Both the position numbers and the translations under genes were made by a program. From Rossellomorea marisflavi (lineage in GTDB: Bacteria; Bacillota; Bacilli; Bacillales; Bacillaceae_B): a stretch of DNA of 64,000 bases. The DNA lies in assembly GCA_003667865.1 (NCBI GenBank), contig CP033051.1, positions 197,501 through 261,500 of the forward strand, read 5' to 3'. Shown here one piece after another: positions 14,645-57,755 of the stretch. Numbering within the stretch: position 1 is the stretch's first letter; the number at the start of each line of letters is the position of its first letter. The notes under the pieces were generated by a model that saw only the letters and a program-made list of their open reading frames with translations, ran no database searches and was not told the origin of the DNA.

Positions 14645-14823
14645 CGGACATTTATTCCCTTATTATCTGGTTTTGGGCATATGTGCAGGGCGCAGAGGAC
14701 ATTTATTCCCTTATTCAACTAAATCTTCGTCATTTTAGACGAAAAACACTTAAATAACGGAACGAATGTCCTTTTGACCATCAAAATAAGCCATTTCAGC
14801 TGATATAACGGAATAAATGTCCG
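14645..14823. mobile_element. 179-bp four-site inverted element, copy A
   Basis: Four 20-bp sites: direct sites at 14645 and 14696 (CGGACATTTATTCCCTTATT type), inverted sites at 14753 and 14804 (AATAACGGAATAAATGTCCG type). Start-to-start spacings are 51, 57 and 51 bp. The bases just before it (GAACA...CTTGAGGTAAAC) resemble the 3' end of the 15388..16044 gene. ORFs read through the repeat are not considered genes. Confidence 0.85.
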
Positions 14824-14963
14824 CATCGTCCACCAACTGTACCCCGACCACACCAAAAAAGACACCTTCTCTTGCACGAAACAAGGAATAGATGTTATGC
14901 ACAAAGAACCTGGATCGAACTTTGGGTAAGAAGTTCGAACATACAGTCTAGTGCTAGACCAAA

Positions 14964-15142
14964 AGGACATTTATTCCCTTATTATCTGGTTTTGGCTGTA
15001 TTTGTAGGGCGTAGCGGACATTTATTCCCTTATTAACCTATATCTTCGTCATTCTAGATGAAAATCACTTAAATAACGGAACAAATGTCCTCTTCACATC
15101 CAAAATAAGCGATTTCAGCTGATATAACGGAATAAATGTCCG
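14964..15142. mobile_element. 179-bp four-site inverted element, copy B
   Basis: Sites at 14964, 15015 (direct), 15072 and 15123 (inverted), spacing 51-57-51. Just upstream, GTTCGAACATACAGTCTA reads VRTYSL in one frame, matching the last residues of the nuclease-like protein, so a degenerate gene tail precedes the element. From 15181 to 15387 I see nothing further. Confidence 0.85.
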
Positions 15143-15387
15143 CTCCCGTCCACCTCCAGCAGCCGACCACACCAACAAAGACACCGATTTTCCGACAAGT
15201 ATTAACTATATAGCTTATTATTGCATTTTTGCCACTCAACGATTACCATTAAATAGAAAAATAGTTTACCCCACTATTCATTTCCTCTTGAAAACTTCCC
15301 TATTACTCTTTTAATCTATCCCATCTTTTACTGCTTTAGTCGTTAAAATCATCACTTTTTATTACTAATCATTTTATAGAAAAGGAT

Positions 15388-16044
15388 GTGCTTATCATAG
15401 ACTCATTTCAACATGCCTATGACCATTGGCTCCAAAAAAATATATTGGAAGAGACAAATCATAGAAGACGCGAAATCTTGAAGAAAGGATTGGGACATGG
15501 AACCGTTGAATTCCTCCGTTTTATATGGTACCCCACTATCGGCAATTTTGATCATTTATATCCAGAATGGGAAGTTCGTGATTTCAATAACAGGTATCGT
15601 TACCTAGATCTAGCGTATATGCCTGAAGGTGCTAAAGGAGGAATTGAGATTCAAGGATATGGCCCCCATGCCAGAGACCTAGACGTCAGAAGGTTTAAGG
15701 ATTTATGCTGGCGACATTCTTTGCTAGCTTTGGATGGATGGACTTTTTTACCAATCGCTTATTTGTCTATAAAAGACGAAACGAAACAGTGCCAACAACT
15801 TATTCTTGCTTTTATTGGTAAATTCCTTACAAGTGACACACCTTCCTCCTCTTTAAATTGGACAGAAACAGAAGTAGTCCGTTTTGCTAAACGAAAACTA
15901 CGTCCAATAACCCCTCTTGATGTTGCAAATCACCTTAATGTAACTGACCGCCACGCTAGACGCATTTTACATAGGTTGGTTGATTCCCAGATTCTAAAAA
16001 AAGAAAGTGGAAACGAACGAGTAAGAACATATAGTCTGAAGTGA
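15388..16044 (+). CDS. repeat-associated PD-(D/E)XK-like nuclease with C-terminal winged helix
   Basis: A 218-residue protein embedded in the repeat array. Residues about 70-125 (YRYLDLAYMPEGAKGGIEIQ, then a helix with RRFKDLCWRHSLLALDGW and FLPIAY) have the Asp...Glu-x-Gln strand pattern and following helix/strand of Vsr/DUF559-type PD-(D/E)XK folds, with Gln in place of the usual Lys. Residues about 158-218 form a winged helix (ITPLDVANHLNVTDRHARRILHRLV). GTG 15388 is the first possible start, but the purine-rich AAAAGGA sits too close to it; the next ATG is about 80 codons in. Element C starts six bases after the stop. DNA binding is likely; nuclease activity and a role in moving the repeats are inference. 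Confidence 0.7.
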   Translation: MLIIDSFQHAYDHWLQKNILEETNHRRREILKKGLGHGTVEFLRFIWYPTIGNFDHLYPEWEVRDFNNRYRYLDLAYMPEGAKGGIEIQGYGPHARDLDVRRFKDLCWRHSLLALDGWTFLPIAYLSIKDETKQCQQLILAFIGKFLTSDTPSSSLNWTETEVVRFAKRKLRPITPLDVANHLNVTDRHARRILHRLVDSQILKKESGNERVRTYSLK

Positions 16045-16050
16045 ACTAAA

Positions 16051-16229
16051 CGGACATTTATTCCCTTATTATCTCGTTTTCGGCAAATGTGTAGGGCGCA
16101 GCGGACATTTATTCCTTTATTCACCTAAATCATCATCACATTACACGAAAATCACTTAAATAACGGAACAGATGTCCTCTTCACACCCAAAACAAGCGAT
16201 TTCAACTGATATAACGGAACAAATGTCCG
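16051..16229. mobile_element. 179-bp four-site inverted element, copy C
   Basis: Sites at 16051, 16102 (direct), 16159 and 16210 (inverted), spacing 51-57-51. It begins six bases after the stop codon of the nuclease-like gene. It shares the spacer sequences of A, B and D and a downstream CTCCCGTCCACC block. Confidence 0.85.
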
Positions 16230-16352
16230 CTCCCGTCCACCATCCACCCTGCAACCCGCACGAAACAGTGAAAAGTTGTCATGTACATAAAACCAGAGGG
16301 ATCGAACTTTGACTGTAAGGCGTTTGAACATATAGTCTAGGGCTAAACTAAG

Positions 16353-16531
16353 CGGACATTTATTCCCTTATTATCTGGTTTTGGGCATATGTGCAGGGCG
16401 CAGCGGACATTTATTCCTTTATTCACCTAAATCATCATCCCATTAGACGAAAAACACTTAAATAACGGAACAGATGTCCTCTTCACACCCAAAACAAGCG
16501 ATTTCAGCTGATATAACGGAACAAATGTCCG
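16353..16531. mobile_element. 179-bp four-site inverted element, copy D
   Basis: Sites at 16353, 16404 (direct), 16461 and 16512 (inverted), spacing 51-57-51. GAACATATAGTCT immediately upstream is identical to the gene tail before copy C, but in degenerate context. The element lies 100 bp from tRNA-Ala. Confidence 0.85.
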
Positions 16532-16630: not shown

Positions 16631-16703
16631 TGGAGCATACCGGGATCGAACCGGTGACCTTTTGGCTGCCAGCCAAACGCTCTCCCAGCTGAGCTAATGC
16701 CCC
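16631..16703 (-). tRNA. tRNA-Ala (GGC)
   Basis: The minus strand folds as a complete cloverleaf: acceptor GGGGCAT/ATGCTCC, D-arm GCTC...GAGC, anticodon stem TTTGG/CCAAA with loop CTGGCAG (anticodon GGC), T-arm ACCGG-TTCGATC-CCGGT, discriminator A. CCA is not encoded. It is a stand-alone gene with its own promoter just upstream. Confidence 0.93.
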
Positions 16704-28310: not shown

Positions 28311-28489
28311 CGGACATTTATTCCGTTATTATTAGTAAAAGTATCGATTATGAAGTGCTGGCGGACATTTGTTCCGTTATTTAGTGAGATTAGAACAAAT
28401 CCACTGCAATAGTAGTCAAATAGCGGAATAGATGTCCACATAACCACTAAAACGGAAGCTTTTTGTGGAAATAACGGAATAAATGTCCG
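28311..28489. mobile_element. 179-bp four-site inverted element, copy E
   Basis: Sites at 28311, 28362 (direct), 28419 and 28470 (inverted), spacing 51-57-51. The 31- and 37-bp spacers differ in sequence from copies A-D but keep exact lengths. It sits alone in the rocR-yugI gap without an associated gene. Confidence 0.85.
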
Positions 28490-44940: not shown

Positions 44941-45119
44941 CGGACATTTGTTCCGTTATTAGTGAGAAATACCAGGTTTTAAAGGAGGAAGCGGACATCT
45001 ATTCCGTTATTTATAAGAATCGCAGCTAAATTCATTCAAATCTAACTAAATAGCGGAACAAATGTCCGCAAACTCCCATTAAGTGATGATAATTTTGAAA
45101 ATAGCGGACTAAATGTCCG
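44941..45119. mobile_element. 179-bp four-site inverted element, copy F
   Basis: Sites at 44941, 44992 (direct), 45049 and 45100 (inverted), spacing 51-57-51, between pbpD and the DUF5366 gene. Spacer sequences are unrelated to the other copies. It ends 39 bases from the next gene's stop. Confidence 0.85.
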
Positions 45120-57576: not shown

Positions 57577-57755
57577 CGGACATTTATTCCGCTAATTTCA
57601 TAGAAAGCTTTCTTTTTGAGGGGGTAGTGGACATTTGTTCCGCTATTTCATGAGAATTCAAGCGAATTTTATCCTTTTTCACTATATAACGGAACAAATG
57701 TCCTCCAGCACCTCATAACCACCGTTTTTACTAATAATAGAGGAATATATGTCCG
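57577..57755. mobile_element. 179-bp four-site inverted element, copy G
   Basis: Sites at 57577, 57628 (direct), 57685 and 57736 (inverted), spacing 51-57-51. Sites are more degenerate (for example TTCCGCTAAT), but the geometry is exact. Confidence 0.8.

Follow-up and report, generated by a model that had tools for sequence, protein, structure and literature searches.

A predicted nuclease gene and a dispersed four-site repeat in Rossellomorea marisflavi and relatives as a probable two-part system

A gene for a nuclease-like/winged-helix protein in Rossellomorea marisflavi lies within an array of repeats that recur throughout the genome, and we propose that gene and repeats are one two-part system in which the protein drives the spread of the repeats in trans by cutting, a reading to which we give a probability of about 0.55. 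The repeat adjoins the gene in most of the relatives analysed, largely occurs in the same genomes, matches the protein in specificity and is dispersed as a discrete unit, and the protein keeps its acidic residues. Because the repeat adjoins the gene and co-varies with the protein, the two look like one system, probably a self-spreading one. The best reading is a partnership of nuclease and repeat that is likely selfish; that cutting by the nuclease causes the spread is our inference.

The window, the whole stretch of 64,000 bp analysed here, covers positions 197501-261500 of a single-contig 4.59 Mb genome. The gene (15388..16044, plus strand, GTG start, 218 aa) is present in one copy in the whole 4.59 Mb genome. 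It sits between the second and third of four elements, with copies A (14646..14822; S1 14646, S2 14697, S3' 14754, S4' 14805) and B (14965..15141; S1 14965, S2 15016, S3' 15073, S4' 15124) upstream and copies C (16052..16228; S1 16052, S2 16103, S3' 16160, S4' 16211) and D (16354..16530; S1 16354, S2 16405, S3' 16462, S4' 16513) downstream. Element coordinates run from the first base of GGAC in S1 to the last base of S4' and carry no strand. The GGAC of copy C comes 7 bases past the stop codon of the gene, on the 3' side that is the usual position in the family (60/70 loci). A sequence-only reading of this DNA had described the reading frame with four elements spaced 51-57-51, and all of these were found where it placed them; its count of four holds for the array, the window having seven in total, each with four sites, since three dispersed copies lie at 28312..28488, 44942..45118 (in a convergent gap) and 57578..57754. 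In the orthologous-flank comparison, the gene upstream of copy A was not covered by the relatives' matches among those listed. Just past the array lies a tRNA-Ala(GGC) gene (window 16631-16703). At four loci from three other genera (L022, L023, L025, L068) the same tRNA gene is found a few hundred bases 3' of the nuclease gene, and it is absent near it in three further loci checked; this neighbourhood may be either an old shared location or a hot spot for insertion. An Rfam RNA identity was rejected, the matches being the tRNA and two far under the gathering score.

Each element is about 179 bp long and consists of two direct and then two inverted sites of about 20 bp, with site starts 51, 57 and 51 bp apart. 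The direct sites are GGACATTTATTCCNTTAT-like, and a site is an imperfect palindrome, AACGGA-N7-TCCGTTA-like in R. marisflavi. Searching the whole genome with a single-site pattern (≤2 mismatches) gave 391 matches, and with the pattern reversed as a control 10; for the 75-bp S2-S3' core the counts were 101 and 0, which corresponds to about 101 elements. Chance repeats were rejected from the reversed-pattern and core counts, together with the control tiles described below. In the window and 76 fetched stretches 97 elements were located. All four sites were present in 88/97, and the spacing was almost constant (51 in 91/92, 57 in 95/97 and 51 in 90/93 elements). Information drops to background right outside S1 and S4' in 95 aligned elements, so that the terminal inverted repeats expected of a MITE are present and bound the dispersed unit. 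Over 4,419 non-tandem pairs, identity was 88% in the sites, 48% in the spacers (the better of two orientations) and 28% in the flanks; spacer identity exceeded 70% in 207 of these pairs in either orientation. The 40 best pairs mostly fell to background identity within about 30 bp beyond S1 and S4', apart from a few with longer common flanks such as L126/L137. The dispersed unit is therefore approximately the four-site cassette, as spacer sharing stops near the outer sites.

A/T content within the elements is periodic. The peak at 10-10.25 bp in whole elements, found in the R. marisflavi genome and also in six other genomes (36 elements), may arise in part as a harmonic of the 51 bp between sites, and the test was therefore repeated with spacers only. 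Spacer A/T content was again periodic, with a broad peak at about 10-12 bp and a power at 11 bp of 1.36, where 200 shuffles gave at most about 0.03. The same genome also holds another repeat type, GGACATAGATGACCTTATT-like, outside the window (C1:1090018, 1186089 and 2129115, with a similar one at 1554798), possibly the relic of a lost paralogue in what is now a one-gene genome.

Adjacency of gene and repeat was analysed at 75 homologue loci (53 named, 11 of the genus and 11 from a phylum search), of which 70 had at least 300 bp of 3' flank and were used, five having less. The scan fixed the spacing and left the sequence free, and a four-site element was called at a score of at least 70 within 500 bp of the gene. 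Such an element was found at 63/70 loci, downstream at 60 and on both sides at five, compared with 1/376 control tiles taken in the genus at loci that lack the gene, and 5/275 tiles in the far flanks of the homologue loci themselves. Homologues normally lacking nearby repeats, which the sequence-only reading had named as grounds for abandoning the idea, were not what we found. Among the seven misses (L017, L018, L025, L033, L049, L069, L238), L017 and L238 have an element slightly farther away (about 440 bp from the gene in L238), and L018, L025, L033 and L049 have what look by eye like partial elements. Adding four further distant matches as misses, each lacking an element, gives 63/74; these four, L232-L234 and fragment L241, come from 15 listed places outside the R. 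marisflavi genome and are left out of the 63/70. Fragment L021, which is without a site by pattern, is left out as well. Two or more elements lie inside 1.5 kb at 19/61 loci, and at 8/61 the reading frame terminates within S1 or past its start; in three of those eight (L067, L070, L073) the frame is already broken further upstream. In the scan, long tandem arrays of 4-8 elements adjoin the gene at L062, L064, L071, L235 and L239. In L018, after position 2130, the repeat seems by eye to be split by coding-looking DNA, perhaps a mobile gene. The system is not confined to Bacillaceae, where the sequence-only reading had placed it; it also occurs in Paenibacillus, in Cohnella and in one genome from a different class within the phylum.

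Across 397 genomes of the order, the gene (called at E≤1e-10) was found in 49 and at least one generic S2-S3' core in 46. At least four cores were present in 26/49 gene-positive genomes compared with 6/348 gene-free ones (Fisher p 9e-22). Abundant repeats without the gene, the other result that had been expected to speak against a partnership, are therefore rare. One exception is G104, in which the gene is absent and yet 34 cores are present, with both outer sites in 9/10 examined; the repeats thus persist without the gene, or another agent is at work. Both outer sites were found in 8/10, 4/5, 2/4 and 1/1 elements of gene-positive genomes, in 3/5 of gene-free G241 and in 3/5 of G297, which has a gene fragment. 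With matches at E≤1e-100, 22/23 genomes hold at least four elements, the 23 including G208, whose gene has an internal stop. Many other gene-positive genomes match at 1e-87 to 1e-94 and resemble a diverged subfamily, whose sites the generic first-type pattern misses. Counting against the partnership, G371 has a strong homologue and 0 elements by the generic pattern. A second-type pattern for the diverged subfamily was found in 10/11 gene-positive genomes of the genus versus 5/25 others; these five, with second-type repeats and no second-type gene, also count against it. Within the genus the gene is patchy (12/36 genomes).

Protein and site also vary together. Over 52 loci, protein identity and similarity of the sites correlated with a Mantel rho of 0.70, where 500 permutations gave at most 0.23; for the central spacer the correlation was smaller, with a rho of 0.26 and a permutation maximum of 0.22. 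Because the spacer correlation also beats all 500 permutations, part of the site signal reflects common descent of the locus. The R. marisflavi genome has 101 first-type cores and 0 second-type matches; among six second-type genomes, first-type cores are absent from four and number 1 in each of the other two. Near each of the four paralogues of genome G438 is a four-site element with a site sequence of its own and nearly the same layout, which shows that the layout outlasts the sequence. The site of one of these paralogues has 82 matches genome-wide, gene-side ones included, against 1 for the control; another genome, which carries a related paralogue, has 12 matches, and five others have 0-2. 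That the layout outlasts the sequence is the strongest sign that the protein would read these sites. The earlier proposal that the protein recognises the 20-bp sites thus gains support from co-variation, which by itself stops short of proof.

The AlphaFold2 model of the protein (mean pLDDT 86.5 over its full length, 87.6 over residues 1-155) combines helices with a mixed alpha/beta core, followed by a C-terminal domain for which winged helices are the best structural matches, none of them at E <0.001. Foldseek with residues 1-155 returned R2 retrotransposon proteins on top; the endonuclease-like 3hrl and the catalytic domain of I-Bth0305I were listed too, all of them weak matches with none at E <0.001. 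The Pfam families DUF559 (best E 7e-5) and REase_MTES_1575 each matched 5/29 members, and neither matched the protein of the window. Vsr, DUF559 and EDxHD are clade names for related nucleases. The PD-(D/E)XK superfamily motif is an acidic core of the D...(D/E)-x-K type. After omitting 11/75 sequences with stops, frameshifts or short matches, and with the window's protein included, D74 and E87 of such a core were present in 65/65 intact sequences, as were E60, E62, D65 and H94; position 89 was Q in 44, D in 13, K in 6 and H in 2. These invariant residues support the retention of a PD-(D/E)XK-type active site, and the best reading of the model is a PD-(D/E)XK-like nuclease domain joined to a winged helix, with cleavage as its predicted activity. 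In some members of the family, stops or frameshifts interrupt the gene. Distant phylum members L232, L233 and L234 carry the nuclease-domain match within frames of 754-858 aa, and no four-site element was found in their fetched flanks. The plasmid collection yielded a match in one record only, a 2.7 Mb replicon of Paenibacillus cellulosilyticus that carries a 28% identical homologue (H1, NZ_CP054613.1:1199426-1200067). A phage-borne gene was rejected, as phage records and viral contigs gave no match.

The elements are mostly intergenic, 93/97 having no overlap of more than 25 bp with any ORF of at least 90 aa. With tandem-array members entered separately and simple ORF calls, the 51 elements with both neighbours called lie in 21 convergent, 27 same-direction and 3 divergent gaps, copies A and B being two of the last; among the gaps between the 59 ORFs of the window, 11 are convergent, 11 divergent and 36 same-direction. 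The surroundings of the copy at 44942-45118 were compared with 29 relatives, three of which lacked the flank pair and 26 of which aligned on both sides. No similar element was found in the same gap of any of the 26 at this one site. The gap is 340 bp in R. marisflavi, with a four-site score of 112; in 19/26 relatives it is under 190 bp, below element size, and printed gaps under 60 bp are hardly more than a terminator. Gaps of six other relatives score 47-58, and that of L191 scores 70 with a GC-rich set that looks unrelated. Presence of the element is therefore lineage-specific at the single site compared. No movement of an element was observed.

These observations bear on a different explanation, in which the protein serves the host as a nucleoid-organising, terminator-linked or global regulatory binder of the roughly 100 elements, the repeats having spread long ago by other means and been kept by selection on binding. 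Sites are kept far better than spacers (88% versus 48% alike), which could reflect host selection in place of self-copying; near-constant spacing with varying spacer sequence and the 10-12 bp A/T periodicity of the spacers favour the same view. Against it, the gene is patchy within the genus, some of its copies are broken, an element is present in one lineage only, and intact elements occur in a gene-free genome. Regulatory binding is also at odds with the distribution of gaps, in which divergent ones are so few beside the convergent, and invariant nuclease residues would be needless for such a role. We consider a host function of this kind unlikely.

A role in restriction, defence or addiction would have the nuclease attack foreign DNA, with the repeats acting as decoys, protected sites or self markers. 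Related nuclease folds are known in defence, and PADLOC gave hits to the family, weak ones that cover only the winged helix in the member displayed. However, the genome that encodes the protein is full of cognate sites, inspection of the window's ORFs showed no evident methylase or defence gene among the neighbours, and the absence of matches in phage records and viral contigs also counts against this role, which we regard as improbable.

Decidedly improbable is a mechanism like that of REP/RAYT, in which the element would fold into a long hairpin and be cut and transferred in single-stranded form. The sites are nested and inverted, the gene adjoins the repeats, and the folding MFE is below that obtained after shuffling the spacers, with a mean z of -1.63 over the first 40 of 74 elements. 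However, complementarity of left to right spacers is lower when both come from one element (0.42) than when they come from different elements (0.46), the inner sites S2 and S3 are anti-correlated, and the HUH/Y1 tyrosine transposase family is absent among the Pfam matches listed (all 7 in one search and 25 of 32 in another). A long-hairpin element was rejected on low arm complementarity and the S2/S3 anti-correlation, with folding energy pointing the other way; no selection for a hairpin was found. Finally, elements do occur far from the gene, as they would if they belonged to an unrelated mobile element prone to land near it; adjacency at 63/70 loci and specificity matched across paralogues and subfamilies leave such hitch-hiking very unlikely.

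In the reading we prefer, the two-part system, the protein would be an endonuclease of the PD-(D/E)XK type that also has a winged helix and binds, probably as a dimer, the imperfect palindromes of about 20 bp. Four sites, two per arm at 51-57-51, could be brought together in a wrapped or looped complex to which the A/T blocks, in about helical phase, would contribute; the strict layout and the A/T phase suggest several protein molecules on bent double-stranded DNA. The dispersed unit would be the four-site cassette, bounded by the outer sites. By cutting at or near the sites the protein would most likely drive spread in trans, and repair would then insert or convert a copy elsewhere, with no target duplication and no strict target sequence. 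No clear target duplication was found in 74 loci (k 2-9, against 12 shuffles); k=4 alone exceeded the shuffle maximum (5 versus 4), with offsets of 39 and 11, away from the element edges. A duplication could have been present in old copies and since been lost. Nor was there a flank consensus around the elements. These results, together with intergenic siting and tandem arrays, fit spread by cutting and repair. We give somewhat under even odds to the fullest form of the proposal: a lone PD-(D/E)XK/winged-helix nuclease would disperse a four-site cassette of about 179 bp in trans, needing neither a known transposase nor a fixed target and leaving no target duplication, and diversification of the family would have produced many pairs of protein and site, several of them in one genome.

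Interspersed repeats of a class so far unexplained, found in Bacillales and Paenibacillus-type bacteria, would thereby be tied to a dedicated protein, as REP sequences are to RAYT. The family also supplies many natural pairings of a small protein with its site of about 20 bp, which can be read beside the gene, and recognition, cutting and spread are therefore directly testable. To our knowledge, the known transposase chemistries do not include the spread of repeats by a nuclease alone. If the nuclease alone does spread the repeats, this would be a transposition-like route outside those chemistries and a new mode of DNA mobility. We found no earlier description of such a nuclease-repeat pair in the open-access literature, the part to which our coverage extends, most subscription papers lying outside it.

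Several known systems share individual features with this one. The predicted fold and the D...E-x-[QDKH] plus His arrangement resemble those of Vsr/DUF559/EDxHD nucleases, I-Bth0305I and the R2 endonuclease domain, with weak scores. A homing endonuclease has one empty cognate target, which is destroyed upon insertion; unlike a free-standing enzyme of that kind, the protein here has about 101 cognate elements in its own genome. TnsA of Tn7-like transposons has a restriction-like nuclease domain followed by a winged helix, and the ends of these transposons carry several protein sites of about 20 bp, so that both domain order and multi-site ends are alike. In contrast to Tn7, no TnsA family was among the Pfam matches listed, and no TnsB/TnsC-like partner was evident by inspection of the window's ORFs.

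As short repeats dispersed in Bacillaceae, the elements resemble bcr1, other bacterial MITEs and Bhal-1, and they differ from the MITE of a DDE transposon in the target-site duplication, which was not found at the 74 loci. Bhal-1 is a stem-loop family of Bacillus halodurans with 74 nt and 36 copies, for which the available part of its description names no gene partner (PMC2267715). Its length is nearly that of the S2-S3' core (75 bp), so that Bhal-1 may be an earlier sighting of such a repeat.

The closest parallel, already drawn in the sequence-only reading, is with REP/REPIN sequences and RAYT (PMC3733652), in which a gene adjoins its own dispersed non-coding palindromic repeats, mostly intergenic. 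The parallel stands for the organisation of gene and repeat, the gene lying beside its own repeat family here too (63/70 loci, five on both sides), and fails for the enzyme and its substrate. RAYT (TnpA-REP) is an HUH tyrosine transposase, whereas the protein here is a predicted PD-(D/E)XK-like nuclease with a winged helix; unlike REP/REPIN, the element has four sites at 51-57-51 and a single-strand hairpin is not favoured; and the hosts here are Bacillales and Paenibacillus. The best reading is a system analogous to REP/RAYT and unrelated to it.
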